Below are positions 31,420 through 52,485 of a DNA stretch of 52,673 nt, one piece after another. The position numbers and the translations under genes were made by a program. The stretch is from a virus. Location of the stretch: positions 1 through 52,673 of the IMG/VR virus record IMGVR_UViG_3300025769_000166; one strand, 5' to 3'. The notes below the pieces were generated by a model. The model searched no databases. It was not told where the DNA came from and was given only the letters and a program-made list of their open reading frames with translations. The first letter of the stretch is position 1, and the number at the start of each line of letters is the position of its first letter.

Positions 31420-32219
31420 TGGCAAAGAACTACATAAAAGTATCGCAAGTAGTCAATGACTTCATTGTAACCCAGGATCACGACGACTATGCTGGCCACG
31501 TTCCAGAAACGAGCGTAAGGACACAAGCCTTGCGCGGAGTAAGGGAGATGGGGTTTGACATGCTGCAGGTTGTCAGGTCGCTCAAGCTTACGGTAGACAC
31601 AGCAACAGATTCTGTTGAGTTACCCTGCGACTATGTAGACTGGACAAAAATCGGAGTGGTAGGAACTGACGGGTTGGTGTATGTACTTGGGCACAACAAA
31701 AATATCAACTACTCCCAGAAGATGAAGGAGTGTGGTGAGTGCGAAGACAGGGAAGACTCTAAGACGGGTACAGCTGGATTCTCTACCGTTGGTGGCGATG
31801 GGATCAAAAGCGGATTTGACTCTCACATCTTCAGAAATTTCATATACCAGAACAACGAGGGGAGACTGTACGGTCTTGGCGGGGGAACGCTTTACGGTCA
31901 ATTTAGAGTAAACCTAGATCAGAACAGAATTGAGCTGTCTGTAAATTCTGATATAAGTGAAATTGTTCTTGAGTACATAGCCGACGAAGCTAGAGCGGAA
32001 GACCCTAGCGTACACATCTATGCAGAGCAAGCACTTAGGAGCTATATATACTACAGGATTATAGAGAGAAAATCTTCTGTTCCTGCTAACGAAAAGGCCA
32101 GGGCTAGACAAGAGTACTACAATGAACTCCGAAAAGCTAATGCTAGGATGAAATCCTTTACAAAGGAGGAGCTGCTCAAGACGATTAGAAAGAACTCAAA
32201 GCAAGCACCTAAGTTGTAA
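31419..32219 (+). CDS. Ring or tail-tubular-A-like connector protein
   Basis: A 266-residue protein. The helical N-terminus VSQVVNDFIVTQDHDDYAGH and RTQALRGVREMGFDMLQV leads into SLKLTVDTATDSVELPCDYV and WTKIGVVGTDGLVYVLG, a pattern typical of tail tubular A/gp4-like connectors (a helical bundle with a beta insertion ending in LPxDYV). The C-terminus is helical and basic (KARARQEYYNELRKANARM). It overlaps neighbours as TGATG and TAATG. It would form the ring joining portal to the tail tube. Confidence 0.78.
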   Translation: MAKNYIKVSQVVNDFIVTQDHDDYAGHVPETSVRTQALRGVREMGFDMLQVVRSLKLTVDTATDSVELPCDYVDWTKIGVVGTDGLVYVLGHNKNINYSQKMKECGECEDREDSKTGTAGFSTVGGDGIKSGFDSHIFRNFIYQNNEGRLYGLGGGTLYGQFRVNLDQNRIELSVNSDISEIVLEYIADEARAEDPSVHIYAEQALRSYIYYRIIERKSSVPANEKARARQEYYNELRKANARMKSFTKEELLKTIRKNSKQAPKL

Positions 32220-35200
32220 TGGCGATAGATAAGTTTGTACCAAGGCAGCTAAATACTGACGTCGATCAGAGGTATCTCCAAGAGGGAGAAATGATCGATG
32301 CTATAAATATTAGCTTCAATGAGGATGGACCTAACAGTGAGGTTGTTCTTAAGAACGAGCGTGGTACTCAGACGTATCTAGCAGCTACGGTTAATGACGT
32401 CGTTCCAGATTACCCAATGACGGTAATAGGCTCTGTATCTGACGTTCAGCGGCGCAGAATATACTTCTTTGCTGCCGCCGACGTTGATGGTCCAGAGCGT
32501 TACGATATGATATTCATGCTGGACATGGAGACTCAGCTTTATAGTATCGTTTTTAGATCTATATCTAATGTGTCTTCTAATCAGTCGTTAAACTTCGATC
32601 CTAATTCATTTATAAAAGCTGACGTACTTAACAGAGACATACAGAGAAACGACACAATTCAATCTATACTGTTCTTTACTGACAACATAAACCCACCTAG
32701 AAAGCTGAACGTTGACAGGGCTTTTGCTGGAGACTATCAAGAGTTTACTGGTGATAATCCATCTGCTGAGTTTGACTTTGTATTTAATGTCGCTGTCGGG
32801 GCTCCAACCAGAAACCCAACCTTTGTATTTGAGACCGACGAAGACTTAGGAGAAAACAACCTTAAAGGAAAATGTTTTCAGTTTGCCACTCAGTTTGTTT
32901 ATGTAGACGGAGAGGAGTCCGCAATATCTCCGTATTCTTCTCTTGCCTTTGTAGACGAAACGTCTGAGTCGCAGGTGCTGGCTATCGGGATGCCAGTCGT
33001 TCTGGCGTCTCCAAGAAGTAGATTTAATGTGTGCGCTATAGACACAAAGTTTTCAAATAGCAATCCGTTTGTTGGAGGGGTATACGATTCTGTATTGACG
33101 CCAGAAGTTGTAGAGTTGAGACTTCTTGGAAGAGAAGATAATGACGGGTCGTGGTTTGTTATAGATGAGTTTGACCCAAGAGAGGATCTTGTAAAAACAA
33201 GGTATGACATTGACGGGCAATTGGTCGACACTGTATACAATGCAAACACTGGGATCTATAGGTTTACTAACAACAGTAGCTACAGAACCGTACCTTCTAT
33301 TACAACCGACAAGCTTTATGATAACGTACCTAGGATTGCTAGAGGACAGGCGATATCAGGAAACAGACTCGTATACTCTAATTACCTAGAGGGATATAAT
33401 AACGAAGATACAGATCTAGTCCAGAATGTTAAAATAACGCCTGTTTACCCAACAGGGGCGGAAGGGGGTGCTGATAATGAAATTGGTCAAGGGTTTCAAA
33501 ATTGGAACGGCACAGCTGGAGAAATTACAGTAGACTGGAACCAAATATTTAGTAGCGGAGACCCAGACGAAGGATCGTCGGTAGGTATTGAACTCACCTG
33601 GACCATAAACAATAACAACACAGTAACAAACAACGACACTGTAGCTCTAATACAGTTAGAGGGTGTTGATTCTTCAGGGGATAGAGTTGTAGTGGGACGA
33701 GGTGGCAGCGATCAAGGTTTTGAATACGATTATGTAAACATTGGATCTGGGTCATACACTTTCAATTTTAACTACGTAGTACAAGCTGGCGACACTATAA
33801 ACGATGTGTCTAATGCTTTTGCCGAATACGTTCAGGAACTTTTATGGGCGAACTATTTCAACGAAGACACCATGTCTTTCAAGACGTTGGGGTCTAACGA
33901 AGACCAGCTTGATGTTGGAAATCAGTCTGATTACACTACGTCTCCATACACAATATCTCCTGACGGCAATGATGTAGTTAGCGTGACTCAGTCATGGCGT
34001 TTTAACGGGGAATCAACTGGGGGTGTAACTACAATAACACCGACAATAACGTTCATGTCCGCGTATGGGGAGGGAGATTACGCTACCTACAATGTAGGGG
34101 GCGGTGGCGGCACTCCTGGGGGCCCTGGAGGATTTGATCCTGGAGGGGTAGATGGTATTGGTGGTGGTGGCTTTGATGGTGAAACTGAAGGTGACCTTAC
34201 TGAAGAATGGTGGAATATACAATTTCAAAGTGAAGATTTTAGTCTGAACCCAACCGAAGAGGTTTATACATGGAACAATGTTAATCTTGTTGGTAGTGTA
34301 ACAACGACTCGAAGGGCGAACGCCGTTCCGTCTTTTAAGGCTGGGTCTAGCCATGAATTTGGCCTCATGTACTACGATGAGTACAATAGGAATGGTCCAT
34401 TCATAAGCCTTGGAAGTTCATACGCTCGTTTAGCTCACGAAAGGGGACTTGTTCAAGGTAAAGGGGCTGTCGGTTTTATATTTGAGTTCCCCCCTTCCGC
34501 TGACGACTTAATTCCAGATTGGGCTAGGAGTTACAAAATACTATACAGCGGATCTCAATTCCAGTCTGTTTTTACTGGTGTGGTATCAAACGCCTTTGTA
34601 TCTACTGACGCAGTGCATCAAGGTGAGCCAGCAACTGGCGCAGGTGCTACGGCTTCAGATTTCGATGAGAGCAGAAGGCATATATATGTCTCAATACAAA
34701 ACATTGAGGATATGCAGTCCGAGATGGATGTAAAGACATCTTACGATTTTGCTGAAGGCGATATACTTAGGGTGACAAGCTACTATTCGGCGGCTGATGG
34801 AGAGAGGGTATACCCAGAAGCGGGTACATTACAAGATCCCAAAACCATAGAGTTTGAGGTGGTTAAGACAGTTATCTTTGAAGACGACTTCAACAATCCT
34901 CTTAGGGTTGGAACTTACAACCAAGGAGACCTTAAAGACAACGGTAAAGTAGGTAGGTTCCTTGTTCTTCGGGCCCCAGAGGTGGATGCTGGATTGTTGC
35001 AGTACGAGGGTTTTGACTGGTTTAGTATAGCAGAGAGTCAAAATACAATACAAGGAACACCCGTTGAATATCCAGACGGCACAGCAGCTAATCCAACTAA
35101 CTACTGGAAACAGGAATGCGTAGTAGAGATAGTAAGCCCAAGAAAAAACACAGATAGGCGCCTGTTTTATGAAATAACTGATTATGTACAAACTGGCACT

Positions 35201-36811
35201 AGAAGGTACACCCCTGCTGAAGCTCAGCTTTATGGTAACCACGGAAGGGCAATAATAACTTATAACGGGGATGTGTTCTTTAGACCTTCGATAAGCAACA
35301 TAAACTCTGTTGACACCTCTGGCGCGACACCCGTTTGGAGTTCCGACCCCAAAGACAGGTTATACAAGTCTATATCTATGGAATCGGATAGGTTCTCCGA
35401 CAAAAGAACCAGAACCGACTGGGGAAAGGGCAGAGCGCATATACCACTAAAAGACAACCAACAAAGAAGAAGGTTAAACGGAATAACGTACAGTGATGCC
35501 GTTGTAGCTGACCTGAACACGCTATACACGTCTTCTTTTGACAAGAATCAAAACAACTACTTAGATCTAAACGCCTCTTATGGTGCGGTAAACTATATAG
35601 GTAGCATGGGGGAGAACCTCATGGCACTGCAAGAAAACAAGGTGTCTAGGCTGTCAGTGGATAGGCAGGTAGTTAAGTCTGCTGGAGGTTCTGATGTAGC
35701 GCTATCTCTTTCGTCATCTCCGTTTAACGTAGATATATACTTCTCTGGAGATTACGGGGTAGGTAATAACCCCGAATCCGTTCTGATACAGGACAGTCAG
35801 TTGTTCTTTGCCGATGTATCCCGATCAGCGATATGCAGGCTTGCATCAAGTCAGTTATACCCTATCTCAGAAAAAAACACCAAAAACCTGTTTAACAACA
35901 GGTTCAATACATTTAGGGCGTTTAATAACGGGAAGATTGTTTCTGGATACAATCCAGATACAGACATGTACTATGCCACCTTCCTTATGGGTAACAACAG
36001 CGATACGATTGGATATAGCGTATTTGGTGGATCAGGCGGCGATGGAGCATGGATAAGTAGATACACGTTCTACCCTACTAACTATGCAAATCAAGATAAC
36101 TATATGTTGTCTACTTTGTATTACGACCCAAATGCTGAAAATCCTTATGATCAGCAGTTGATCCACAGGCATAGTTCTAACAACTACAACACCTTCTATG
36201 GGCAGTTTAATCAGTCAGACTTTACATATGTTTCTAAGGTCGACCCTAGCAAGGTAAAGGTATACGATGTAATATCTCACGAAGGCAATTCCAATAACTG
36301 GGTGGTTGAGTCAATCAACACTAATTTGATGGGTGCTAACGATAACGCTGGCACGTTGGCTTTTGTAGAAAGGGAAGGTTCTTACTTCGCGTATATTACA
36401 AGAGATCCTGGAGGTAGCAAGCACGTAAGGATGCTAGGAAGAATAGATACTTCAACGTTCAACAGTATAACATTTCAAAACAGAATAAATAATATGTCTG
36501 TTCCTGCAAATGCAGAGCTTATGCTTGTTTTGAACGGAAATTTAGTTAGTATTTCTAGCAATACTGATCAGGTCCTTGTGGAGTCACTTACTGATTCTAA
36601 AACGGTTGAGTCTCAGAACTCTAACATTGACGTCAACCTCGCATTAAATGGAAGCGATATAGCAATACGGACCCCAGCTATATTGGATAGCGATCCTATT
36701 AGGGGTCACTATGCTACAATAAGAATGACTAATAATTCCGCACAACAGTTTGAACTGTACTGCGTTAACACATTAACAACCCCGTCCTTGTTGCATCACA
36801 ATAGAGGATAA
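32219..36811 (+). CDS. Muzzle/tail-tubular-B-like tail protein
   Basis: A 1530-residue protein, the size and place of the crAss-like muzzle (stabilization) protein that forms the short tail nozzle. The N-terminus FVPRQLNTDVDQRYLQEGE and DAINISFNEDGPNSEVVLKN and the motif FTDNINPPRKLNVDR near 158-172 are typical of this group. A Gly-rich hinge (GGGGTPGGPGGFDPGG) lies near 626-656. The rest is beta-rich, with VSRLSVDRQVVKSAGG near 1142 and an end resembling a beta-propeller nozzle. The gene is coupled to the ring gene by TAATG, and its stop is followed by a promoter. Confidence 0.8.
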   Translation: MAIDKFVPRQLNTDVDQRYLQEGEMIDAINISFNEDGPNSEVVLKNERGTQTYLAATVNDVVPDYPMTVIGSVSDVQRRRIYFFAAADVDGPERYDMIFMLDMETQLYSIVFRSISNVSSNQSLNFDPNSFIKADVLNRDIQRNDTIQSILFFTDNINPPRKLNVDRAFAGDYQEFTGDNPSAEFDFVFNVAVGAPTRNPTFVFETDEDLGENNLKGKCFQFATQFVYVDGEESAISPYSSLAFVDETSESQVLAIGMPVVLASPRSRFNVCAIDTKFSNSNPFVGGVYDSVLTPEVVELRLLGREDNDGSWFVIDEFDPREDLVKTRYDIDGQLVDTVYNANTGIYRFTNNSSYRTVPSITTDKLYDNVPRIARGQAISGNRLVYSNYLEGYNNEDTDLVQNVKITPVYPTGAEGGADNEIGQGFQNWNGTAGEITVDWNQIFSSGDPDEGSSVGIELTWTINNNNTVTNNDTVALIQLEGVDSSGDRVVVGRGGSDQGFEYDYVNIGSGSYTFNFNYVVQAGDTINDVSNAFAEYVQELLWANYFNEDTMSFKTLGSNEDQLDVGNQSDYTTSPYTISPDGNDVVSVTQSWRFNGESTGGVTTITPTITFMSAYGEGDYATYNVGGGGGTPGGPGGFDPGGVDGIGGGGFDGETEGDLTEEWWNIQFQSEDFSLNPTEEVYTWNNVNLVGSVTTTRRANAVPSFKAGSSHEFGLMYYDEYNRNGPFISLGSSYARLAHERGLVQGKGAVGFIFEFPPSADDLIPDWARSYKILYSGSQFQSVFTGVVSNAFVSTDAVHQGEPATGAGATASDFDESRRHIYVSIQNIEDMQSEMDVKTSYDFAEGDILRVTSYYSAADGERVYPEAGTLQDPKTIEFEVVKTVIFEDDFNNPLRVGTYNQGDLKDNGKVGRFLVLRAPEVDAGLLQYEGFDWFSIAESQNTIQGTPVEYPDGTAANPTNYWKQECVVEIVSPRKNTDRRLFYEITDYVQTGTRRYTPAEAQLYGNHGRAIITYNGDVFFRPSISNINSVDTSGATPVWSSDPKDRLYKSISMESDRFSDKRTRTDWGKGRAHIPLKDNQQRRRLNGITYSDAVVADLNTLYTSSFDKNQNNYLDLNASYGAVNYIGSMGENLMALQENKVSRLSVDRQVVKSAGGSDVALSLSSSPFNVDIYFSGDYGVGNNPESVLIQDSQLFFADVSRSAICRLASSQLYPISEKNTKNLFNNRFNTFRAFNNGKIVSGYNPDTDMYYATFLMGNNSDTIGYSVFGGSGGDGAWISRYTFYPTNYANQDNYMLSTLYYDPNAENPYDQQLIHRHSSNNYNTFYGQFNQSDFTYVSKVDPSKVKVYDVISHEGNSNNWVVESINTNLMGANDNAGTLAFVEREGSYFAYITRDPGGSKHVRMLGRIDTSTFNSITFQNRINNMSVPANAELMLVLNGNLVSISSNTDQVLVESLTDSKTVESQNSNIDVNLALNGSDIAIRTPAILDSDPIRGHYATIRMTNNSAQQFELYCVNTLTTPSLLHHNRG

Positions 36812-36815
36812 CAAT

Positions 36816-36823
36816 TATATTTG
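36816..36823 (+). promoter_or_regulatory. Promoter core TATATTTG, essentially leaderless
   Basis: TATATTTG ends three bases before the ATG at 36827, the shortest spacing in the window. A TTG lies about 22 bases upstream as a -33-like element. Confidence 0.75.
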
Positions 36824-36826
36824 CAT

Positions 36827-37750
36827 ATGCCCTTATTTCTACCACTACTTGCCACGGCTGGCTCTGCCTACCTCCAATACAGAGGGCAGAAGAAGCAAAA
36901 TGAGCGTGACGAAGCCAGAAACCAGGAGCTTCTTTCTAAGAACAAGGCTGAAGCCGAGCGTCGTCAGCGTCAGGTAGAAGGTAGCTTTGGGGTTGACAAA
37001 TACACATTAGAGGCGCTTGAGCAGGCCAGAGGAAGACAAGGCGTTAAAGAGGCTGAAGATCAAGCAAACCTTGGGGCTGCAAATCAAATGGAGCTTGCGG
37101 CTAGGTTAGGATCTAGAGGTGGTATTAACGCTGCAGCAATAGAAAGACAACGACAGAAGTCCGTTTTGGCTGCGGGAAAAGAACAGAGGAGGGGAGAGCA
37201 GATCGCTCTGCAAAATACAGCGAGGGCCCGTCAGGATCTAGACAGATCCAAAAGACAATATGAGTTGGGAAGGATGGGACAAGCTGAACAGACAGCGGCA
37301 CAGGCTCAGCAAAATCTGTTTAACGTTCAGGACAACAAAGCTAACCTAGGAATAAACCTAGCCAGTGGAATTCTAGATGCCGCTACGCCACTGTTGGGCA
37401 CTATTGGTGGTGGTGGTGGAGCAGGTGGATCAGGCCTTGGAGGTTCTGGAGGTGGCGGATTTAACCTAGGGCAAAACATGATGGGTGGATTCAATAATAC
37501 TGGCGGGTATCAGTTCCCAACTGGAGGATTTGGTTCCTACAACTTTGGGGGCGGCTCTGGTAAGAACGGGATGAAAACGCCTGGTCAATTTAGCCATGCA
37601 TCCAACCCAATTAACCTGATGCAGAATGGAGCCAAAGTGGGCGAAGTAACTGGAGGTGAGTACGTTGTAAACCCAGAGCAGGCTAGAAAAATTGCAGAGC
37701 AAAGCAAATATGCCAGAATGCTCTTTAGAAAATTTGATAAAAACGCATAA
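36827..37750 (+). CDS. Ala/Gln-rich coiled-coil virion protein, ejection candidate
   Basis: A 307-residue protein from the ATG at 36827 (a TTG at 36821 lies inside the promoter core and is rejected). It opens with a short hydrophobic stretch (MPLFLPLLATAGSAYLQYRG), continues as a long charged and Gln-rich helix (about 20-165: NKAEAERRQRQVEGSFG, QTAAQAQQNLFNVQDN), then a Gly-rich segment (about 190-245) and the end TGGEYVVNPEQARKIAEQS. Such helical, Ala/Gln-rich proteins before large internal proteins are typical of ejected inner-core components in podoviruses. It overlaps the next gene as TAATG. Confidence 0.65.
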   Translation: MPLFLPLLATAGSAYLQYRGQKKQNERDEARNQELLSKNKAEAERRQRQVEGSFGVDKYTLEALEQARGRQGVKEAEDQANLGAANQMELAARLGSRGGINAAAIERQRQKSVLAAGKEQRRGEQIALQNTARARQDLDRSKRQYELGRMGQAEQTAAQAQQNLFNVQDNKANLGINLASGILDAATPLLGTIGGGGGAGGSGLGGSGGGGFNLGQNMMGGFNNTGGYQFPTGGFGSYNFGGGSGKNGMKTPGQFSHASNPINLMQNGAKVGEVTGGEYVVNPEQARKIAEQSKYARMLFRKFDKNA

Positions 37751-39219
37751 TGTACACCAACAGAGTTCAGGCGCCAGTAGAAAAGATCGGGCTTACGGGA
37801 TTTGATAAGCCACTAGAGGAATTTAAAAAACTCTCTAAGGATCATATTGCAGAAGAAAAAGCAAAAGCGGCGCAGCTGGCTTCTGAATCGAACAGACAAA
37901 AAGAAGAGCAAGCAGCTAAGCTTGAGAGATCAAGAAAAGATGCTGAAGCCGAAAGGAAGAGACAAGAAAAAGCAAACGAAGAGCAAAGAGAAAAGTACTT
38001 GAGCATGTCCGAAAAGGTGGACGCTCCAGACCACGCCAACATGTACGATGGGCACTGGGCTATGCTTGAGGAGTTTGCGGGGCACCTTGCTAATCCTGAA
38101 ACAATTAAAAGATACGCATCTTCCGTAGAAGGAGAGATGGAGTTTAACGCTCTAATTGACCAGCTTCTTACGCTTACAGACACCTTTGAGACATACTACA
38201 AAGAAACTTATGGGGACGCCAATGATCCTGACGACATGCCGACTTTTAGTGGGTCGTCAAACAGGGATCTTCACGGAGTGACGTCTATAGGCGATATAAA
38301 CTACAACACCCCTCATTCTGAAATGATGTCAAGGTTAGTTCAGCTGGACTCTAAGCAGCATACTGGAATGAGAATAGAAGGGGGTAGAGTTGTGTTTACT
38401 GGGCCAGATGGAGAAGAAATTCTGCCAGGGGCTAATTTAGATATGGATGTGTTTAAACCAGACATATCAGAAAGGGCACCTATGAGTGGGTCTGACTTTA
38501 TGAATAGTGGATTTGACGAGTCGGCGTTCAAGACAGAACAAAATGTAAGGGATTTTGTCTCAGACGGCCTACAGGACGAGACCATTCAGAGGGATGCCGC
38601 TAGAACATATGTGGAGGCAATGGAGGAGTCTAACCCCAACTTTAGGTTTACTCCAGAACAAGTTCTAGCAAACCCTACACTCAGGATGGCTGCTTTCGAC
38701 AGGTTTGAGCAAGGCGCGGTAGATCAGTGGACTGAAAACATATCCCTTCCTTCCGAGGAGGAAATAGATGCCACTATAGACGAAGAAGCCCCAGAACAAA
38801 ACGAAATGGGCATTCTAGAGGAGGATATTAAGATAGACGAAGAGGACGAGTTTGGTGTAGATCCAGGGTCGCCCACGGGCACCGCTAAATGGAAGTTCTC
38901 TGAAGAAGTTCCACCCATAATGATATCTGGGTCTCCATTTAAGATGGGTGAAATGACTTTTAATCCAGACGATCTGACCCTAAACATAGGCATGGTATAC
39001 GCAGATGTAAAGGAAGGTCAAAGAACCCCAGAAATGACCCTGTCTATTCCTACCACCCCTGAGGGGAAATTAGAAGATAGTCCAAGGCTGCAAGAGATAA
39101 TAACGACCTTCGATGAAAAGTACGGCACGGGGCAGTTTGAGAAACTCTGGACAGAGCTGAAAGACAGAGAGATCGGTAAGTGGTGGGATTCAGTGAGCGC
39201 GTCACAGACAGCTGAGTAA
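37750..39219 (+). CDS. Coiled-coil acidic virion protein, likely internal or cargo protein
   Basis: A 489-residue protein. Residues about 25-85 are an uninterrupted charged coiled coil (KLSKDHIAEEKAKAAQLASE, SRKDAEAERKRQEKANEEQR). The middle is acidic and mixed, and about 355-385 is Glu/Asp-rich (EEDIKIDEEDEFGVDPG). No catalytic motif is recognised. It starts in a TAATG overlap and lies between the Ala/Gln-rich protein and the giant internal protein, so it probably belongs to the same packaged set. Function is unknown. Confidence 0.65.
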   Translation: MYTNRVQAPVEKIGLTGFDKPLEEFKKLSKDHIAEEKAKAAQLASESNRQKEEQAAKLERSRKDAEAERKRQEKANEEQREKYLSMSEKVDAPDHANMYDGHWAMLEEFAGHLANPETIKRYASSVEGEMEFNALIDQLLTLTDTFETYYKETYGDANDPDDMPTFSGSSNRDLHGVTSIGDINYNTPHSEMMSRLVQLDSKQHTGMRIEGGRVVFTGPDGEEILPGANLDMDVFKPDISERAPMSGSDFMNSGFDESAFKTEQNVRDFVSDGLQDETIQRDAARTYVEAMEESNPNFRFTPEQVLANPTLRMAAFDRFEQGAVDQWTENISLPSEEEIDATIDEEAPEQNEMGILEEDIKIDEEDEFGVDPGSPTGTAKWKFSEEVPPIMISGSPFKMGEMTFNPDDLTLNIGMVYADVKEGQRTPEMTLSIPTTPEGKLEDSPRLQEIITTFDEKYGTGQFEKLWTELKDREIGKWWDSVSASQTAE

Positions 39220-39236: not shown

Positions 39237-42200
39237 ATGGATACTACGCAGATAAACTTTGCTGACATGTTAATTTCTCAGGGTAAGACCCCAGAGGAGA
39301 TAACAAAGTACTTAAACATAAGTAATGGAGGAAATTCAGTATCCCAAGATGAGGTAAATGAATACTTTAACTCCAGGTCTGTAAAAAAAAAAGAATCGGA
39401 AGATTTACCAAAGGTAGAAGCAGAGGCTACTGGACCCGAATCTTCGGTAGAGAATTTGGAGTCTACTCCAGAAGAATCTAAGCCCCTAGTAAATTTTTCT
39501 CCTGTAATACCTGAATCAGAGGACCCTGGAGTGTCCGCTTACAGGAACTATCTCATTGACACTAAAGCGTCTAAGGTTAACTCAAACAAGGCCCCAATAA
39601 TAGGCGCTTACAATTTAAGTGATGAAGAAAGCTTAAAGCAAAGGTTCAGGTACGATGCTGTAATGTGGGCCTCTGAATCTAAGGCGTTGGGTGAGAACGT
39701 CACAGAAATTGAGATGATGCAAGATCCAAAGCTGGTTACGCAAGCTATGGAAAAGTTTAAAGGCCATCTCGAATCCAATTACACTAACTATGAGGCGACC
39801 GACGAAAAGCAAACAGACTACGTTGCTGGAAGCGTGTTTCATGACATAATAGACGGAGTCTCTAGCATAAGAAATGACAAGTCCCTAAAAGGGTCAAAAA
39901 GAAGAGAGGCGGAGCGGGAGTTTATGGATCGCTACGTGGAGGAGTTTAAAGAAAGGCTACCAGAAGATAAGAGAGATGACGAAGAGTACCTAGAAAAGGT
40001 ATCTGAAGCGATGTACAGCAGGTTTGGGTTCAGAATGAACTTTGACGGAGACAACGTATATAACGAAACTGCAAATCCTCTTCTGGCCCCTCTTGCTGGC
40101 GCTGCGGCTACTACACTAGATATGATTTCGGGTGTGGCTTCAGTTAACCCTATTGCCATGATTCCTGCTTGGATTAAGAACAACTTTGATGACGACCCAA
40201 GCAATAACAATATTGTAGACGCTATAACAGAAATAGACCAGGCTTTAGCCGATGCGTCTAAAAACCTTAGGGGGTACACACGGGACTATCAAGATGTAAG
40301 CGTTTTTTCTCCTGAAGACTGGAGTGATTCGGGGGTTCATATGTTGGGGTTGATTACACAAACCCTCGGCGATGTAGCTCCTTATATGGCTGCAGCTGCT
40401 GTTTCACCGACTGTAATGGTCGGCTCGATGAATGTGGGGGCTGGTATAACTCTGGGTAGTAATGCGTTTTTGAACACATTTATAGACAGTTACAGGGAGG
40501 ATGAGATTGCTATTAAAAACAATGAAACTCCAGTATTTGACTTTTCTGCATCAGGTCAGGCTTCTAGGTTTATATTCTCTTTGGGTACGGGTGTTTTAGA
40601 AACTGGTACGGGCCTTCTGTTTCAGGGAGCCGCGTCTAGAGCTGTTGGAAAAGGAGGAGGTATTCATGACGTATTTAGAAAAATATTTGTAGGCGAAAAG
40701 AATCCAGCTACAAGAGCTCAGATTCTTAAGATATATGCTACTGCCGCTGGCGCTGACGCTATCCTTGAAGGAGGCGAAGAAGCTGCTGTTGCCTTGTATC
40801 AAGGATGGGCGCAATCAGAACTAGGAAACGTTGAACAGGACTGGGATCAAGTATGGGATAACGTTTCTGCATCTTTCCAGTTGGGAGTTGTTGGAGGTGG
40901 AGCTATTGGAACCATTTCAAGTGCCGTTGGAGCAAAAAAAGAAATATCGGAGCTTCCTACGGGGTCAAGAATAAGTACAGAGAACTCAAACTTTGAGATG
41001 CAAATTGAAAGGGCTGCGTCTTCAAAAGGAGACGAAGCTGAAGTAGCCAAGTTTTGGTTTGGACTTGGAGACAACAATGTTGATTTTGAATCTCAAGCAG
41101 AATTTAATGCGGCAATGGGAGGGACTCCATTTGCATTGGAGGAAGGAGATAAGTATACCACAGCGAACTCTGCTAGGTATGAGGAAGAAGTAGAGAACCA
41201 CAAGAAGACAAACAAGGACAAGTACAAGGCATTGATGTTTAGGAACCCAAAAGACTGGGCTAGACTTCAAGAAATAGACAGGAGGATATCTGATGTACTG
41301 GCAAAAGGAACAAGGGCGGAAGACATGTCTAATTCAGAGACCCTGTCTGCTGATGCAAAAGAAGCTGCCTCTAAATCTATTCCTTCACTTCAAAGGCAAT
41401 ATATAGACCTAGTAAAGGAAAGAAGGTCGATATACACTTCTTTTGAGTTTGACGGGAACTTTACTATTGAAGAGAAAATAAAGATGGATGACTCTATCGT
41501 GGCCAACAGGCTTGGTCAGATAGATCAGGACATAAGGGATGCCGAGTCAAAGGTGGTATTTCAAGAAGAAAACAAAGACACAAAATCCTTTAACCCACTA
41601 GCTAAAAGAAGAGCCGAAGCAGAAGTAGAAAGCCTCCAGAAAAAAAAGCAAAATGCTGAGTCTCTAGTAACGGAAGTAAATTCAGCCAGAGACAAACTAG
41701 AGCTTCTTGAAAAAAGAAACGCAAGCCCTAAGAAGATAAAAGAAGCCACTGAGATAGTTTCTTCTTCCGAGCAACAGTTGGCTGATTTGCTTGGGGTCAA
41801 AACTAAATCCACTGGTAACTCCAGATCTACTGAAAGAACGTCTCAGGCGCCATCAAAGCCCACCTCTGTTTGGTCCGCAGAAGAACAGGCTAAAAACCAC
41901 TTTGAAGACGCTGAAAACAAAGGGAGCACGTTTACCTTAGATGGCATTAATCACGCAGGAAGGCCTATGGCAAGCGTGAGCATATTCAATGAAAGAAGCA
42001 AGGTCGTGGACGGGGATATGTCACAAAAAGATCTTGAGGCAGAGCTTGGAAAGTTTAAGGAAGAGAATGCTGACATTCTTGACGGCAATGAAGATATTCT
42101 TGCCGTTGGTACATTTTACAGTAACGAAAGCAATCAAACTTTTATAGACCTGTCTGCGGTGGTTGACAAAAAGTCAGCAGAGGAATTGGGTAAGGCTTAT

Positions 42201-45200
42201 AACCAAGAGTCTGTGTGGGACCTCGAACTCATGGAAGGCATAGACACGGGTGGAGATGGAGGAGCCCTAGATAACCCCAAGTCAGAAGCAGAAAGAGTTA
42301 AAGACATTAGAGATATACTCTCTAGGTTAAATGAATCCCAGAGGGCAAAAGCCTTAGCTCAAAGAGGAATAGAAGGTAAGTATACAGACTACAGAATAGA
42401 AGGGGATGAAGGGTTTGGAGTAAAAGAAAACGATCTAGTTGACAAAAAAACTGCCGACTTCATTAACAAAAAGCTTGCAAAAACCCTACAAAATGTGGTT
42501 CCAGGAGATGTGTCAATAAGGATACATAACACTGCTGAGTCTGGTAATTATGCTAGACAGGGCGGGCTGGACTTGGAAAAAGGTGTGGTAAATGGACTCG
42601 CCGTAACGTATGAAGACGGGAGTGCGGTAATACACTTTAGCCCAGAAGCACTAAAGTCTAGCGGAAAGAGCGCAGAGTCTGTTCTTATTGAGGAGACCCT
42701 ACACCTCGCTATGGGCCCCACGATTAGAAACATGTCTCCCAAAAAGACTTCTAGGGTGATATCTGATCTTAAGGGTATAACCAAGAGATTGGCTAAAACC
42801 AACCCAGAACTTCAAGGTCTTATAGATCAGGCTACGAACAAGAGCAAGCAGTATAGGGAAAACAACGTTAGCGAAAACGAGGTAGCCGAGGAGGTCATAT
42901 TTGAGTATATATCAGAGCTTTCCCCATTCCTTGATCCTAAGGCGTTAAGCGTGCAGGATCAAAGCGCCCTTATTAGAGTGGTTAACGAGGTTCTGTCCGC
43001 TCTTGGTCTACCCTCTATAAGCAGTTCTGAGGATGCTATAAATATGCTCAAAAGAGCGTCTGAAATGTACCGAGAGGGCAAGTCTATGGTGGATGCCCCA
43101 ACTGATGGAACAGTAGATTCAGAAAGGGCGTCGTATTCTGAAAAAGGATTTCCCATTTCTGCATTACCTGAGGAGGAGCCCATAACTATTATGTTTTCGG
43201 CACCCACGTACTACAGGTCTGGACAGCTTTCAGGTCTTCAAGCGGGGACTTTAGAAAAAGAAATGACCTTTAACGGCAAGTGGCACTTTATAAACTGGTG
43301 GAAAAAGGCCACTAAAATGGGTAAGCTTCCGTATAGCGATTTTAGAATTTTCAACACATATGATGGATCTGTTGAAAGCTTAAATGTAGATCAACTAAAA
43401 AGATGGAAGCTTAAGCCAGCTAAAAAGAAGGAGACAGAAAGAGAAAAAAAGACGAGGCTTCAAAAAGAAAAAAACGAGTTGCTTTCTACTATATACAACA
43501 TGTTCAGGGATGAATATGGGGTAGAGTTTGGTATGGCAAGAAAAACGCAAGAGGCATACGAAAGCGTAGCTAGTATGTTTATGTCCGAGGAAGAGCTACA
43601 AGAGCACAAAGACTTCGAGGGGGATGTATGGTCACCAAAGAAAAAGGGAGTTATTAACCTTAGCTTCCTTACAAACGAGCAACTGGTAGATTTTATAGCA
43701 AGTCAAGAAGAGTTCTTGGGAATCAGACCAAAAGACTCTGGGTCTAGTACTGTCTCAGAAAACGCAAATGAATACCTGTTTAACATAAACAAAGTAAGGT
43801 CGATTGAAGACCTTGACGAAAGGGTGTCTAGTATGAAAAAGTATCTTCAGAGATACAAGTGCGGAGGAGACACAAACACCTGTATAATAAGAGGGGACAA
43901 AGCATATTTGGCGACCTATATGGAAATGGTAGCCGATGCTCTTAACGGAGATTTTACTGTCAATTCAGCAGCTGAGCTTCTTCAGGGAATGGTGCTGTTT
44001 CAGAATGACTTGAGAATACACAGACGTCAAAGATCTCTTGCTGACGTAGATATTGACAACATGGAGCTGGCTCAAAGGGCTACTGATTTAATCTCCAACA
44101 GATACAAAGACACCCCAGGTGTAATCCCTGCTAACTCAAGAGATTTTCAGTCTTTGTTTCTTGGCATTGCTGCTATTACATCAAATGGCAACAGAGCTTT
44201 GCCTAATCTAAAAATTGCTCTCAGGCTTCACGACTCCATACTTAAGGCGTTAGAAGGTGGGGCGCCTATGAAAGACGCTCTTAGACCTGACATAATAGAG
44301 GGAATTAGACAATACAACCCAGAGGTAACAAGAGGTGAAGTAAGAGCTGGAAGGGGACAACACGTTGCAGACGAGCTGCTTGCTCTGTTAGAGTACGCAG
44401 ACAGATTCTACGATGTAGAGACTGGACGGTTCGACTCTGACAGATTCTCCAATGGCCTTACTAGAAAGGCTAAAGGGAAAGAAGGTCCGCAGGCCAGATA
44501 CATCCTAGGTAAAGGACAAGAAGGGGATGCTGAAAAAATAGGAGAGTTTTTGTCAGGCATTCTTGGAAAAGGAAACAATTCGTTTCTAGCGAAGGAGCTA
44601 TGGGTGGGAAGAGTAATGGCCGCCATGCAAGGAAACTTTGATCTGAACATAGATTCCGAGCAGGATCAAATGCTACTAAACTACGGAGAGGTTCCTAATA
44701 TTCAGGAATACCTTCAAAATCAAGGTGTTACGGAAGATCAGGCAAGACAAGCTCTGAAGGAAGTAGGCACTACCGCGTGGGACACTACTACAGATCCGAC
44801 TGACATAGCGATAGGAGGCTTGCTGCACATAAAGTACAATCCCGAAACCTCAATAAACAATAGAAGGCAGGCAGTAACGCTCTTCAATAAGCTTATAGGC
44901 AGGGATCAACTGTACAACCCCAAGAGCGATCCTAAGGTAACAAGAGATGTACTTAAAAGAACTACTGACCTAATAAACGCTTCGCTTTCTCCAGGAGCAA
45001 AAAAATGGACCCCATTCTCCGTTCAACAAGCACTATGGGAAAGTGCTCAGGAAACGATGGGTTACTTCAGGGATGGAGAATACACACCAGTCGATTACTT
45101 AACAAGGCTTGATCAAATAGAATCGGAGGACACCTGGCATTCCTCTCCTAGTCTGTTCATGGATCCTGGTGTGAAGTGGTGGCTTGACTCCAATGAAAAC

Positions 45201-48200
45201 TCAAAAAAGGTTTCTTCTGAAAGGGCATCTATGCAAATAGACATGTTCTCTAATGATCAGAAAAACCTAAATATTCAAGCGCATGAAAGTCCGCTGTTTA
45301 GGACCAGAACCATGTCTAACACAGCGGTAATAAACGGACAGGAAATGTCTGACGAGATGGTGCATGATGCGCTATTGACTGACGCTACCTCCAGAAAGAT
45401 AATGGGAGAAGAGAATGAGGTTAAGGAAGGAGACATAGTAGCTGTAAGATTGAACCTTAATGTAAAAAATAACACGGGGGTTCCAGTTCAGACAATCCAT
45501 GATAAGACCGCCAGTGGAAAAGCACTTCAATACTCAGGAGCGGTCACACTTAAAAACGTGACGCTCGATGTGAATCAATCTGCAAGAGAAAAGATTGTAA
45601 CGTTTAGAGAAAATAAGTTCCCTATGGCGGCTGTTAGGGGAGAGTTTGTTTCCAAGGGCGTAGAGGAGGCGGATCTGGATGGGGTTAGAGCTACGTTCAA
45701 TCCATTTAGAGAGCACCTCTTTGTTGATGCGGCTGGAAGACCAATAAAGTCGGCAGAAGAAGCAACAGTAATAGGTAACAATGTAATCCTGAGAGGGAAG
45801 ATAGAGTATTATGACCCTTCTGGTCCTGTAGCTCAGAGGGGCCTTAAGGAGACTGATAAAAACAAGTCTGAAAGGCTGGACAAGGGTAATCCTAAGTACG
45901 AAGGAAACCTTAGGAGGTTTAAGGCGTTTTCAGAAAGAGCCCTCGGTGTAACTTACGAAACTAGAGAGGACCTAGAGGACGCATACGAAAACCTTCCAGT
46001 AAGCTCAAAAGTAGCGCTATCTGAGTCAGAGGTAGCAGAAAGAATGGCTACCGCTAACGAAAGGGCTAGTATAACGGAGTTTACAAAAGACAAAAGAATG
46101 AGAGGCAGGGCCAGAAAAGCTGCTGGTCAGTTTGGCGGAACCACTAGGGCGGACATTGTAAACAACCCCAGTAACTACATAAAGCCTCAAAAAATAAAGG
46201 AGATAAAGGAGGATCTAACTGCCTATACAGATGGAGAGCTCGTGTCTTTTATGACCGATGAGTCTATAGGTAGGTTGTCTCAAAGAAACGATGATATAGG
46301 GGTTTTGGCGGGAGCTGAACTCCTCAGCAGGGCTATAGCGAAAGGTGAGACAGAAAGAATACCAGGCCTGATCGCAGAGCTTGCGGCTATAGGAACTTCT
46401 GCTGGTAGGATACTTAGGCACTTTAGAGAGCTAAAAAACTCCAACCCAAGAGGCCTCGCTAGTATAATTGAGTCAGCCGTAATAGAAAAAGGAAATAAAC
46501 TTTCAGAGGCTCAATCACAAAGGCTAAACGATTTATGCGATAAGTTGTTTGCTCAGCAGGCCAAGGTGGAGAACCTAATGAAGAGGGCCATTGCAGGTGA
46601 AGAGGTTGACGCTGAGTTTGAAAGGGCACTGAAAGAAATGCAGGCCACTGAAAGAGAGCTTGATACATTTACTAACGCCGTCATAGAAAAAGACTGGGGT
46701 ACGATATTTAAACAGCTCGTTCAGGGTAACCTTCTTACGCCTTTCTCTCAGATAGTAAACGTAGGAGCAAACATGGTAAACGCATTTGGAAAAGTCGTGG
46801 TGGACACTGCGTCTTTGCCAGTAGAATACGCCATGGTGAAGCTTGGAAACGTAATGGGCAAAAATCTAGAGATGAAAAGAAAGCCCAGCTTAATGGCCTA
46901 CATGTACGCCATGAAGAGATTTGGAGCTGGATTTGTGGAAGCTGCTGACCAAATAGTAACGGGTCAAGACAAAGAGATTTCTGAGTGGAGAATAAATAGA
47001 GGATTTGCTCCATATAGATCTATAATGGCGGCCTGGAATAACGACCTACCTCAAGGTCCAGATGGGAAGGGTAGTCCAACTCAGAAGGCTAAACTGATAA
47101 TCCAAGGAACTCTTGGTATACCAGCAGAGACAATGTTTAGGTTCCTCTCCCTTGGAGATATTCCATTCAGAAGATGGGCGGAAGCTAAAGAGCTATATCA
47201 AATTGCATTAAACAAAGGTCTAAGCGGAAAAGAACTAGAAAGGTTCCTTAAATTCCCCAACAAGAAAGACCTTGAGATTGCTAGGATAGAGGGAAGAAAG
47301 CTTACATTCCAAGAGGAAGGCTTTGTTAGTGGAGCAACGAACAGACTTGTGTCAAGCCTTGAGGGTGCGATGGCATCTGGACTTCAGATGATTCCTGGGG
47401 TGAAGGATGGGTCTAAGTTTGCGAGAGCTTTGTTTGGGGTTATACTCCCGTACCGAAGCACTCCAGCGAACATACTACAGGAAACGTTTACTTGGGTAAA
47501 CCCTTATGTAGGTATAGTCAGAATGTCTAAAGACCTCGAAAACAAAGATGTAACAGAGGCTTCTAAGACCATGACTAAAATGATGCTAGGAGCAGTGACA
47601 CTAGAGGCGGCGATGATGATGATCAAAGAAGGAATCATATCTGGACCCGTTGACTGGCAGGACGACGAGAAAAGAAACATGGCTTACGACCTGTTCCCCC
47701 CAAGTAGCGTTAACGTGTCTGCACTGAAGAGGCTTATGTCTGGCGGAGACCCATCTCACAAACCAGACGATGTGTTTATGAGATACGACAAGATGGGGAT
47801 GTTTGGTGCTATAATGGCTACAGCAGTTCAGTCAATAGACTCTGATGATCTGGCAGATATAAAGAACAGAGAGTACGGGGGGCCTATAGACTTCACTTCT
47901 CACATGATATCTGACTTCTTTGGAGCGAGTTCTGTGTCTTCTATATCCGCTATGATGGAGCAGAGCTTTGTACAAGGCCTTAATCAGTTCTTGCAAATAC
48001 TTATAGGCGACAACGTAGAAAGGGATTTGGAGCGGTTTATAACAACTGCATTCAGAGCGGGTAGTGCGGCTGTTCTACCAAACACGCTGACATCTCTTTA
48101 CAAGTCTCAGAGGCTTTTGTTGCCAGACACAAGGACAACAAAGGACATGACTACCACAGAAAGAATTCTCACTAAGTTTAAATACACTCTTAAAGAAAGA

Positions 48201-48770
48201 ACGTTTGGTCTGTCGGAGGTGCCAATAAGGGTTGACTGGAAAGGTCAAGACATAAAGCAAACACCAAGAGGAGCAAATGGATTTGTCTATCAGATGTTTG
48301 ACCTGTCAAGAGCTCAAATGGGATCCGCCGATCCTCTGTCAAATGAGGTATGGAGACTATATGAAAGCACCGAGGATCTGGCTGACATATGTAGCACCCC
48401 AGGTTATGCGGAGAAGAGAGCCGTAGCGGTCCCAAACATTACATCGAAGAAAGACTTGAGGCTTACGGCGGCTCTGCCTAAACAATACACGTGGATGAAC
48501 GACCAAGAGTTCCAAGCTGAAAGCGTCTACTTGAACGTCGAGCAGATAAACAGACTAATGAAGATATCTGGCAAAAACAGGTATGACATGGCTCTCACTA
48601 TCATCAACTCTCCAGAGTACAAGTCGGCAAATGATCAAGACCGATTAGAGATGCTAAGTGACGTTGCTGACGAGTTTAACGGCGCCAAGGAATATAACGA
48701 AGAAGGATTTGAGCCACATACCATAGAACTGTTCAACATCATACAAGACATATATGATGGAAGGCAATAA
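39237..48770 (+). CDS. Giant internal virion protein (large polyvalent/cargo type)
   Basis: A 3177-residue protein, over a sixth of the window. The N-terminal 80 residues are acidic with IxxYLNISNGG. Hydrophobic Gly/Ala-rich segments at about 282-310, 380-430, 440-475 and 540-565 (FQLGVVGGGAIGTISSAVG) suggest membrane insertion or glycine zippers. A coiled coil lies near 771-855. IEETLH at 1151-1156 resembles a metallopeptidase helix with the first His missing. Later regions (FQSLFLGIAAITSNGNRALP near 1640; FNPFREHLFVDAAGRPIKS near 2147; GTLGIPAETMFRFLSLGDIP near 2622; GVILPYRSTPANILQETF near 2738) resemble segments shared by ejected proteins of podoviruses and large polyvalent proteins. No RNA polymerase motif was recognised. 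Confidence 0.75.
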   Translation: MDTTQINFADMLISQGKTPEEITKYLNISNGGNSVSQDEVNEYFNSRSVKKKESEDLPKVEAEATGPESSVENLESTPEESKPLVNFSPVIPESEDPGVSAYRNYLIDTKASKVNSNKAPIIGAYNLSDEESLKQRFRYDAVMWASESKALGENVTEIEMMQDPKLVTQAMEKFKGHLESNYTNYEATDEKQTDYVAGSVFHDIIDGVSSIRNDKSLKGSKRREAEREFMDRYVEEFKERLPEDKRDDEEYLEKVSEAMYSRFGFRMNFDGDNVYNETANPLLAPLAGAAATTLDMISGVASVNPIAMIPAWIKNNFDDDPSNNNIVDAITEIDQALADASKNLRGYTRDYQDVSVFSPEDWSDSGVHMLGLITQTLGDVAPYMAAAAVSPTVMVGSMNVGAGITLGSNAFLNTFIDSYREDEIAIKNNETPVFDFSASGQASRFIFSLGTGVLETGTGLLFQGAASRAVGKGGGIHDVFRKIFVGEKNPATRAQILKIYATAAGADAILEGGEEAAVALYQGWAQSELGNVEQDWDQVWDNVSASFQLGVVGGGAIGTISSAVGAKKEISELPTGSRISTENSNFEMQIERAASSKGDEAEVAKFWFGLGDNNVDFESQAEFNAAMGGTPFALEEGDKYTTANSARYEEEVENHKKTNKDKYKALMFRNPKDWARLQEIDRRISDVLAKGTRAEDMSNSETLSADAKEAASKSIPSLQRQYIDLVKERRSIYTSFEFDGNFTIEEKIKMDDSIVANRLGQIDQDIRDAESKVVFQEENKDTKSFNPLAKRRAEAEVESLQKKKQNAESLVTEVNSARDKLELLEKRNASPKKIKEATEIVSSSEQQLADLLGVKTKSTGNSRSTERTSQAPSKPTSVWSAEEQAKNHFEDAENKGSTFTLDGINHAGRPMASVSIFNERSKVVDGDMSQKDLEAELGKFKEENADILDGNEDILAVGTFYSNESNQTFIDLSAVVDKKSAEELGKAYNQESVWDLELMEGIDTGGDGGALDNPKSEAERVKDIRDILSRLNESQRAKALAQRGIEGKYTDYRIEGDEGFGVKENDLVDKKTADFINKKLAKTLQNVVPGDVSIRIHNTAESGNYARQGGLDLEKGVVNGLAVTYEDGSAVIHFSPEALKSSGKSAESVLIEETLHLAMGPTIRNMSPKKTSRVISDLKGITKRLAKTNPELQGLIDQATNKSKQYRENNVSENEVAEEVIFEYISELSPFLDPKALSVQDQSALIRVVNEVLSALGLPSISSSEDAINMLKRASEMYREGKSMVDAPTDGTVDSERASYSEKGFPISALPEEEPITIMFSAPTYYRSGQLSGLQAGTLEKEMTFNGKWHFINWWKKATKMGKLPYSDFRIFNTYDGSVESLNVDQLKRWKLKPAKKKETEREKKTRLQKEKNELLSTIYNMFRDEYGVEFGMARKTQEAYESVASMFMSEEELQEHKDFEGDVWSPKKKGVINLSFLTNEQLVDFIASQEEFLGIRPKDSGSSTVSENANEYLFNINKVRSIEDLDERVSSMKKYLQRYKCGGDTNTCIIRGDKAYLATYMEMVADALNGDFTVNSAAELLQGMVLFQNDLRIHRRQRSLADVDIDNMELAQRATDLISNRYKDTPGVIPANSRDFQSLFLGIAAITSNGNRALPNLKIALRLHDSILKALEGGAPMKDALRPDIIEGIRQYNPEVTRGEVRAGRGQHVADELLALLEYADRFYDVETGRFDSDRFSNGLTRKAKGKEGPQARYILGKGQEGDAEKIGEFLSGILGKGNNSFLAKELWVGRVMAAMQGNFDLNIDSEQDQMLLNYGEVPNIQEYLQNQGVTEDQARQALKEVGTTAWDTTTDPTDIAIGGLLHIKYNPETSINNRRQAVTLFNKLIGRDQLYNPKSDPKVTRDVLKRTTDLINASLSPGAKKWTPFSVQQALWESAQETMGYFRDGEYTPVDYLTRLDQIESEDTWHSSPSLFMDPGVKWWLDSNENSKKVSSERASMQIDMFSNDQKNLNIQAHESPLFRTRTMSNTAVINGQEMSDEMVHDALLTDATSRKIMGEENEVKEGDIVAVRLNLNVKNNTGVPVQTIHDKTASGKALQYSGAVTLKNVTLDVNQSAREKIVTFRENKFPMAAVRGEFVSKGVEEADLDGVRATFNPFREHLFVDAAGRPIKSAEEATVIGNNVILRGKIEYYDPSGPVAQRGLKETDKNKSERLDKGNPKYEGNLRRFKAFSERALGVTYETREDLEDAYENLPVSSKVALSESEVAERMATANERASITEFTKDKRMRGRARKAAGQFGGTTRADIVNNPSNYIKPQKIKEIKEDLTAYTDGELVSFMTDESIGRLSQRNDDIGVLAGAELLSRAIAKGETERIPGLIAELAAIGTSAGRILRHFRELKNSNPRGLASIIESAVIEKGNKLSEAQSQRLNDLCDKLFAQQAKVENLMKRAIAGEEVDAEFERALKEMQATERELDTFTNAVIEKDWGTIFKQLVQGNLLTPFSQIVNVGANMVNAFGKVVVDTASLPVEYAMVKLGNVMGKNLEMKRKPSLMAYMYAMKRFGAGFVEAADQIVTGQDKEISEWRINRGFAPYRSIMAAWNNDLPQGPDGKGSPTQKAKLIIQGTLGIPAETMFRFLSLGDIPFRRWAEAKELYQIALNKGLSGKELERFLKFPNKKDLEIARIEGRKLTFQEEGFVSGATNRLVSSLEGAMASGLQMIPGVKDGSKFARALFGVILPYRSTPANILQETFTWVNPYVGIVRMSKDLENKDVTEASKTMTKMMLGAVTLEAAMMMIKEGIISGPVDWQDDEKRNMAYDLFPPSSVNVSALKRLMSGGDPSHKPDDVFMRYDKMGMFGAIMATAVQSIDSDDLADIKNREYGGPIDFTSHMISDFFGASSVSSISAMMEQSFVQGLNQFLQILIGDNVERDLERFITTAFRAGSAAVLPNTLTSLYKSQRLLLPDTRTTKDMTTTERILTKFKYTLKERTFGLSEVPIRVDWKGQDIKQTPRGANGFVYQMFDLSRAQMGSADPLSNEVWRLYESTEDLADICSTPGYAEKRAVAVPNITSKKDLRLTAALPKQYTWMNDQEFQAESVYLNVEQINRLMKISGKNRYDMALTIINSPEYKSANDQDRLEMLSDVADEFNGAKEYNEEGFEPHTIELFNIIQDIYDGRQ

Positions 48771-50580: not shown

Positions 50581-52485
50581 TTATCGGACGGGACATGCTC
50601 CAGTATCGCAGTTGTCGATCTCTACCTCTTCCAGCGATATGCTGTCCAAAGACGTGATCGGGGTGACACTAGCTTTCATCTCGTCATACCTCTCCTTGGT
50701 AATCTCTTCCAGAGGGGCTTGATCGAAGCCGTGGTCGGAGTGCAAAAGGAAGGAGACAGACTTTACATTGACGTAGTTATCGTGGAGCCACCATCGGATA
50801 GCCTCCAATTCTTCTTTACGGTAGTATATTGTAACAGACACAGAGTTGTCTGACCATTCGCTCTGAAGTCTCTTGATGACTTCCAGCTGATCGCATGCGC
50901 TCATATCGTCCGCGAACTGCGTACCTTCAGGGAACGAGCAAGGGAATGATACGACTACCGTGCTATGGTCATCAGTGCCGTCGAAGTTGCGGACGTACTC
51001 TACGTGGTACCCATTGCTCCTAGCAACTCGTGCCAGCTCACTATCTGCCGCCATTCGGATTCGTCTAACGTAGTATTGGGAATATCCAGGGTGTGCGCCA
51101 GGTGTAACACCAGCAAGAAGTGACAGCGTTCCAGAGGGTTTAACTGTAGTAAGCTTAATGGAATTGGGAAACCCATGTGACTTAGAATATTCTTTATCGT
51201 ATGCACGAAGATACGTATAAGCTTTGTCCAACCAAGACTTTTGTTCTTCTGAAGCCTGCAGATACCCAGTCACACCAATACCCATACGCATGTTGCGGTG
51301 GACGATATTTTCGGTCTCCTTCAGGGCGCACGGTATAGCGAGGCTGTGCTTGTTCACCCTGTACAGGTAGCGAAGCACCTTCCTCAACTCCTCGTAGTCC
51401 TCAATGTTTGGGAGGTATACCTCTGCCAGACAGCAGGTCTCGAAGTTCTCAAGGCTCTGCTCGGCACAAGGGTTGTATCCTTGAACGTTTGGATCTGGGT
51501 ATTCATATTCACCCGTCCTACCCCACTTGCGAGAGGTCTCAAGGTTGATCAGACCGTAGGGCTCTCCGTTTCCGTTATACCCCTCCCAGAACTCCTCAGG
51601 GAGCTTTCCGATGTCGTCGCATACCACGGAGTTGTTGGACATAGCCCTCCAGTTGGGTATGTTACCGAGGTCCCAACGCTTAGCGCGGAGGAACTCGATG
51701 TCGTCGAAATCACCCAGAGCAATCTGAGCAGACCTCCTGACGTTACCTGCCACCACAATCTTACCGATGATGTTCATAATGTCAAGGCAATCCACGCTGG
51801 ACAGGCGGCGACCAGCCTTGGCGTTCAGAATCTTGTTGATCTCCATCATACCCCATACAAGATCCTCGCTACCGCTGGCAGTTCCACCGAACCCCTTGAT
51901 CTTAGCTCCTTTTGGTCGAATGAGGTGGGTGGCGAAAGTAAAGTCCTCGCACGTTCCGTCCTGCCAGAAGTGAGACTCAATGACCCGCTCAAGGAGTTGG
52001 ACCCATCCCTCTCGCGAGTCAGGAACGATGAAGTCAGCGTCATTGACGTCTTTCCTCTCGATGTTCACCTTTTGGTGGCCGACCTTCGGGAGTTGGTATA
52101 CATTCTCCCTTTGGATGTTGAATCCGACTCCGCTACCGAGCATGAGCATCTCAAATGCCCAAGTGAACGGGCGGATGGGTTCGTCAACAACCACAAACGC
52201 ACAGTTTTGGAGGGACGGCAACCCCAGACGATCTACGGTTTTGGTGCCGAGCTGCCAAAGAAACCTGCCAGCAACTGTGCCTTTGAGGTCAAGCATAATG
52301 TTGCGGAGCTCCTCTTTCTCGTGATCGAGGAACCCGCATTTGAGCTGTTCGTTACATGCCTCAACAACGCGATTGACTGTATCAGGCCACTCTTCTGTTT
52401 TACCTTCTGTGGTGGGTCTTGCATACGTTCGTTTGAACGTGGGGTATCCCACCTCACCCCATGGAGTAAGTTTTTCTGTGCTCAT
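50581..52485 (-). CDS. nrdJ: Adenosylcobalamin-dependent ribonucleoside-triphosphate reductase (class II)
   Basis: A 634-residue monomeric class II enzyme (RTPR type) that reduces NTPs to dNTPs using coenzyme B12. The N-terminus (TPWGEVGYPTFKRTYAR) matches the family. Catalytic residues are visible: Cys95 in SLQNCAFVV, Cys340 and Glu342 in NPCAEQ, Cys351 in ETCCLAE, and the C-terminal redox pair Cys626/Cys631 in CDTGACPVR. KPSGTLSLLAG is also typical. Spacings 340-351 and 626-631 equal those I recall for the Lactobacillus enzyme (408-419, 731-736), but the protein is about 100 residues shorter, with the loss spread over several loops. The start follows an A9 run. The host must supply B12. The other strand carries only antisense frames. 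Confidence 0.93.
   Translation of the reverse strand: MSTEKLTPWGEVGYPTFKRTYARPTTEGKTEEWPDTVNRVVEACNEQLKCGFLDHEKEELRNIMLDLKGTVAGRFLWQLGTKTVDRLGLPSLQNCAFVVVDEPIRPFTWAFEMLMLGSGVGFNIQRENVYQLPKVGHQKVNIERKDVNDADFIVPDSREGWVQLLERVIESHFWQDGTCEDFTFATHLIRPKGAKIKGFGGTASGSEDLVWGMMEINKILNAKAGRRLSSVDCLDIMNIIGKIVVAGNVRRSAQIALGDFDDIEFLRAKRWDLGNIPNWRAMSNNSVVCDDIGKLPEEFWEGYNGNGEPYGLINLETSRKWGRTGEYEYPDPNVQGYNPCAEQSLENFETCCLAEVYLPNIEDYEELRKVLRYLYRVNKHSLAIPCALKETENIVHRNMRMGIGVTGYLQASEEQKSWLDKAYTYLRAYDKEYSKSHGFPNSIKLTTVKPSGTLSLLAGVTPGAHPGYSQYYVRRIRMAADSELARVARSNGYHVEYVRNFDGTDDHSTVVVSFPCSFPEGTQFADDMSACDQLEVIKRLQSEWSDNSVSVTIYYRKEELEAIRWWLHDNYVNVKSVSFLLHSDHGFDQAPLEEITKERYDEMKASVTPITSLDSISLEEVEIDNCDTGACPVR

Follow-up and report, generated by a model that had tools for sequence, protein, structure and literature searches.

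Among the described systems closest to the one analysed here, phage N4 ejects gp50, a protein of 3,500 residues that combines a membrane domain at its N-terminus with a polymerase, an HExxH zincin and an all-helical C-terminal part (C2) for which no structural homologue is known (PMC12633501). Mass spectrometry has detected three cargo proteins of crAss001, gp45, gp46 and gp47, in virions (PMC10172136). Very little characterisation exists of the giant ejection proteins that crAss-related phages encode.

The window, that is, the whole stretch of DNA analysed here, is a virus record of 52,673 bases. Its late module comprises genes for a terminase (start at position 9481), a portal (11632), a 2533-aa collagen/VWA tail protein (14464), a capsid protein (28279), two tail/ring proteins (30649 and 31419), a muzzle (32219) and proteins of 309 aa (36821) and 489 aa (37750), and its last large gene encodes a giant protein (39237). 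The end of the module is organised as follows:

32219-36811, plus strand: muzzle protein of 1530 aa (PF25729 crAss_MUZ_C, E 2.6e-7; phrog_14478, E 6.5e-74).
36821-37750, plus strand: 309-aa protein, first gene of a putative ejection trio, in the position of elemo gp20, phi40:1 gp99 and phi18:3 gp120.
37750-39219, plus strand: 489-aa protein, second of the putative trio, resembling in position and size elemo gp19 (449 aa), phi40:1 gp100 (549 aa, MS/MS) and phi18:3 gp121 (499 aa, MS/MS).
39237-48770, plus strand: giant protein of 3177 aa, a predicted large polyvalent ejection (internal virion) protein on the basis of syntenic full-length homologues.

A crAss-type tail is indicated by the PF25729 muzzle in the same module, found here and in 11 of 12 related records, and the best isolate matches of the terminase and muzzle are to Elemovirus, MW202828, and Cellulophaga, Tenacibaculum and Maribacter phages. 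By sequence comparison, the virus is a crAss-related podovirus with a crAss-type muzzle.

Several other genes of the window deserve mention. The tail protein encoded at 14464-22065 (plus strand, 2533 aa) contains collagen-like repeats and a von Willebrand factor A domain, and a 433-aa RCC1-repeat protein is encoded inside the structural module (24245-25546, plus strand). A GroES-like protein (6729-7313, plus strand) is encoded upstream of the terminase; a GroES-like gene adjoins the terminase in elemo phages too. At the end of the record, a B12-dependent ribonucleotide reductase (50581-52485) lies on the opposite, minus strand.

The ORF listing shows 3177 codons from ATG without a stop at 39237-48770. 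Full-length homologues of 2979-3237 aa occupy the same location in other virus contigs, so the reading frame is a gene rather than a chance ORF. Searches with the last 856 residues recovered the same gene in ten virus contigs, and with a C-terminal alignment at 35 loci; almost every copy in which both ends are present measures 2.8 to 3.3 kaa. No sequence match to aa 1022-3177 was obtained among annotated phages (tblastn), and the PDB gave nothing significant for the protein, either by sequence or by fold.

The gene order is shared with elemoF, MW202828, Calle/phi38:1/phi40:1, phi18:3 and Panino, with extra small genes in some of them. In these phages, too, the muzzle and some smaller genes are followed by a large protein at the close of the late module, with 3694 aa in elemoF, 3859 aa in MW202828, 1691 aa in phi38:1, phi40:1 and Calle, 1935 aa in phi18:3 and 1829 aa in Panino. 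The size of the giant protein, which in the initial annotation would rank among the largest of ejected proteins if packaged and ejected whole, is thus not exceptional, given the N4 vRNAP of 3,500 aa (PMC12633501) and same-position proteins reaching 3,694 and 3,859 aa. In phi46:3 (L022:6439-12958) the same-position gene appears as two ORFs, gp120 and gp121 (1439 and 626 aa), as opposed to the single 1935-aa gene of phi18:3. The genes for crAss001 gp45-gp47 come after the muzzle, as the giant gene does here, and the N4 order gp52, gp51, gp50 corresponds to that of the 309-aa, 489-aa and giant genes.

Two of the same-position proteins, phi40:1 gp101 and phi18:3 gp123, carry the GenBank note "annotation based on experimental MS/MS proteomics analysis" and are annotated as virion proteins. 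Taken with gene position and with the resemblance in fold to polyvalent and internal virion proteins described below, these MS/MS notes from cultured relatives favour an ejection protein of polyvalent type over the other explanations. By analogy with these systems, such a role, already proposed in the initial annotation, is well supported, and the giant protein most likely travels inside the virion and enters the host ahead of the DNA. The 3' end of the giant gene overlaps the start of a holin-like gene (48754), an arrangement that would also suit a late protein that is expressed alongside the structural module but stays out of the virion and acts in the cell at lysis or assembly; this is, however, very unlikely, considering the MS/MS annotation of same-position proteins in two other phage families and the nature of the fold matches.

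The following features were recognised from aa 1300 onwards:

43134-45356, plus strand: small beta region (FNGKWHFINWWK) and then a helical domain (aa 1300-2040), with conserved F1345, F1351, N1353, S1649, N1657, K1767, G1799 and Q1931.
45426-45785, plus strand: Phage_L5_gp82 / phrog_586 domain (aa 2064-2183; Pfam PF25735, E 5.5e-12; phrog_586, E 3.4e-10), beta-rich in models.
45834-48767, plus strand: conserved helical C-terminal module (aa 2200-3177), found by profile in all family members tested, those of 28% identity among them, and with BFVD fold matches.

The region of aa 1300-2040 is modelled with pLDDT mostly of 60-93. The only convincing Pfam domain, Phage_L5_gp82, is present in all nine members scanned; among annotated phages, a query with this domain matched only gp82 of Bobb and Acolyte, and nothing was found in the literature on L5 gp82. 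AlphaFold modelled aa 2020-3177 with low confidence (pLDDT 64, pTM 0.38), yet 55 BFVD structures match the model at E <= 1e-3. The named ones are mostly polyvalent and internal virion proteins (LPD3, ART-PolyVal, MuF-C, internal virion protein), including those of S-CBP2, S-CBP3 and a Pelagibacter phage at E 1e-17 to 1e-8. The resemblance to polyvalent proteins noted in the initial annotation therefore holds for the C-terminal part by BFVD fold search; no LPD Pfam model matched the family by sequence. The protein combines at least two disparate domains (the variant zincin described below, L5_gp82, the C-terminal module and, tentatively, a DUF3293-like part), and the fold matches show domains common to other polyvalent proteins.

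No sequence-level homology was detected between the C-terminal module and the proteins of elemo, MW202828, phi40:1, phi18:3, Panino, crAss001 gp47 or N4 gp50, and no relative emerged when viral contigs were scanned with the C-terminal end of the MW202828 protein. Within the giant family, the N-terminal and middle parts are exchanged among members while the C-terminal module is constant, so that the family presents a constant chassis with swappable payloads. Some members (L079 and L087) are without the zincin. In others (L053, L080 and L084) EExxH is absent and a canonical HEMAH is located just before the C-terminal module, at aa 1755, 1630 and 1121, respectively.

The position of the gene, the same as that of the N4 vRNAP and crAss001 gp47, would also be expected of a virion RNA polymerase of N4-like or crAss-like type, too divergent to be recognised, with transcription as its payload. 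No RNA polymerase was found elsewhere in the 12 related records either, by searches that miss divergent RNAPs; PF00940 was absent from these records, but control genomes gave no match as well, so this search is weak. Against such an enzyme, no RNA polymerase family was recognised in the giant protein, in agreement with the initial annotation, and models of aa 1040-3177 revealed no RNAP-like PDB fold. Neither a polymerase domain nor a conserved DxDxD motif of the N4 or crAss type was recognised: the DVDID string, considered as a candidate, is not conserved, being replaced by EIHKE already in a 58%-identical relative (L004/L024). A divergent polymerase is accordingly a very improbable alternative to the polyvalent ejection protein.

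The N-terminal third contains two regions of interest:

39924-41156, plus strand: Gly/Ala-rich N-terminal domain (aa 230-640), a possible membrane- or ejectosome-contact part, with G+A enrichment and the profile matches given below.
41904-42326, plus strand: tentative DUF3293-like segment (aa 890-1030), aa 900-1060 matching elemo 1313-1392 with probability 65.

The Gly/Ala stretches reported in the initial annotation were recovered: the richest stretch of 60 residues, which starts at aa 464, reaches 38% G+A, whereas 300 shuffles gave 30% on average and 37% at most. Transmembrane-like peaks of the canonical kind occur no more often than in shuffles (3 versus 3.9), with no strong transmembrane helix, so the membrane activity also suggested there is only possible. 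Profiles of aa 230-640 match the distant family members L087 (probability 72) and L084 (probability 70), as well as Panino (probability 25-48). In elemo gp18, residues 1313-1392 correspond to the Pfam domain DUF3293.

The next domain comprises the following elements:

42414-43136, plus strand: variant zincin domain (aa 1060-1300), with a profile-profile match to the Elemovirus HExxH domain (probability 98.8, E 8.4e-17) and a predicted helix-strands-helix-helix order.
42690-42704, plus strand: EExxH motif (E1152 E1153 T L H1156), with the first zincin His changed to Glu, in 28 of 28 aligned members and nine further members.
42840-42842, plus strand: K1202, which family alignments show as K or R in all EExxH members and F in the HExxH family.
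42891-42905, plus strand: E1219-E1223, a predicted helix with the third-ligand glutamate; E1219 is invariant, and E1223 is replaced by D or G in distant members.

In the profile comparison, aa 1069-1290 match Elemovirus 1476-1668, with E1152 aligned with the first His of HEIFH, while control segments of the same protein gave probabilities below 1. The Elemovirus domain is called a zincin on account of its invariant HExxH and downstream glutamates and of matches to DUF5700 and IrrE that are only sub-threshold. The giant protein thus shows homology to an HExxH domain with a downstream glutamate, while carrying EExxH in place of the HExxH catalytic helix. In the structure model, EExxH is located on a helix after three strands. 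The right order of helices and strands supports, though does not prove, a zincin fold, as a PDB fold search with the model including this region found no match.

Residues E1152, E1153, H1156, K1202, E1219 and E1223 are identical in all 28 aligned members, and Y1206 is present in 27. These sequences group into 20 clusters at a 70% identity cut-off, and pairs of them share on average 25.6% identity across the zincin region. Codons at the invariant sites are mixed, E1152 being encoded by GAG in 19 members and GAA in nine. EExxH is retained in nine more distant members carrying the domain (among them L078, L083 and L089-L093), with R for K in the deepest group, and [K/R]xxxY is invariant in the giant family where the HExxH family has FxxxY. 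Nowhere else in the first 2,000 residues is conservation as strong as at the zincin site: of the 16 best conserved positions in aa 1-2000, seven fall within its 72 residues (5e-7 for one given stretch, uncorrected for the choice of stretch).

The initial annotation described a degenerate peptidase-like helix, IEETLH; the motif, at I1151-H1156, does lie in a homologue of HExxH zincins, but "degenerate" is not apt, since EExxH is kept in every relative carrying the domain, and it is probably a kept and re-tooled site rather than a product of decay. A simpler explanation would be that the zincin is dead, a single ancestral loss of His having left the domain as a folded spacer in an ordinary polyvalent ejection protein, which would affect only the reading of the variant site. 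The change of the first His to Glu is known in inactive zincins, such as M2 peptidases (PMC3650047), and L079 and L087 dispense with the domain altogether, but the other site residues of a dead spacer should drift, whereas here they are kept at 25% mean identity and with mixed synonymous codons. In addition, six of the 11 invariant columns outside the C-terminal part fall within the 72 residues of the site. A dead zincin is consequently disfavoured, although it retains an appreciable minority chance.

On the sequence evidence, EExxH...[K/R]xxxY...E is most likely a retained, re-tooled site, either a changed metal site or an ion-pair scaffold, and not an ordinary zinc protease; the protease-like site is altered identically in all members that retain the domain. 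More tentatively, and with clearly less than an even chance, it may represent a distinct working zincin-like class in phage ejection cargo, in which the His to Glu change and a compensating basic residue would yield either a metal site of unusual type or an active site that needs no metal. Perhaps the same class also occurs in crAss001 gp49, homology with which is only suggestive (probability 4 to 64 depending on the profile). This "RNA polymerase subunit" cargo protein (L020:26300-27483, minus strand) has EEFAH in its N-terminal part, and EExxH is found in seven of eight Steigviridae gp49 proteins. A literature search on EExxH zincins returned nothing besides the M2 peptidase remark. If the zincin does work with EExxH and a basic residue, HExxH-based searches miss such domains in phage cargo.

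Taken together, the giant protein is quite probably the largest member of an ejection (cargo) trio in a crAss-related marine podovirus, with a constant C-terminal chassis, a changeable payload and a retained variant zincin site. It would be packed with the genome, leave through the ring/muzzle tail after the proteins of 309 and 489 aa, and reach the envelope and cytoplasm ahead of the DNA. The N-terminal Gly/Ala domain may contact the inner-membrane end of the channel, and the C-terminal helical module (aa 2200-3177) would act as the family-wide packaging/ejection chassis. The payload between them would consist of the DUF3293-like part, the variant zincin, the helical domain and the L5-gp82 domain. 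The host-takeover role suggested in the initial annotation is conjectural.

Like the large polyvalent proteins (Iyer et al., 2017; PMC5512222), the protein analysed here is a giant multi-domain phage protein with a zincin-like domain and a common C-terminal fold; the sections consulted there describe HEXXH and HEXXXH and do not mention an EExxH variant. Cargo proteins gp45-gp47 of crAss001 occupy the same position after the muzzle, and gp47 has HEAFH, but no significant sequence match of the giant family to them was found. The Cellulophaga phage proteins phi40:1 gp101 and phi18:3 gp123 (Pervagoviridae and Pachyviridae) are similar in gene position and in being MS/MS-annotated virion proteins, but differ in length (1691 and 1935 aa) and have neither HExxH nor EExxH; the sequence link to them is weak and indirect, as direct matches to the giant family are absent and the Elemovirus profile matches the N-terminus of phi40:1 gp101 with probability 86. 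The Elemovirus "structural protein" elemoF gp18 (3694 aa) and its IMG/VR relatives share the position after the muzzle, the homologous zincin domain (E 8e-17) and probably the DUF3293 segment preceding it, but have canonical RTVAHExFHA and F where the giant family has K/R, the rest being without clear sequence match. As to N4 gp50, no significant profile match was obtained, although the zincin was the top-ranked place. This protein differs in the presence of an RNA polymerase and canonical HELVH, and its N-terminal membrane domain has a counterpart in the Gly/Ala-rich domain, for which membrane contact is conjectural. Both proteins are nevertheless giant, are encoded by the third of three (here putative) ejection genes, and carry a zincin followed by a helical C-terminus of about 1,100 aa.
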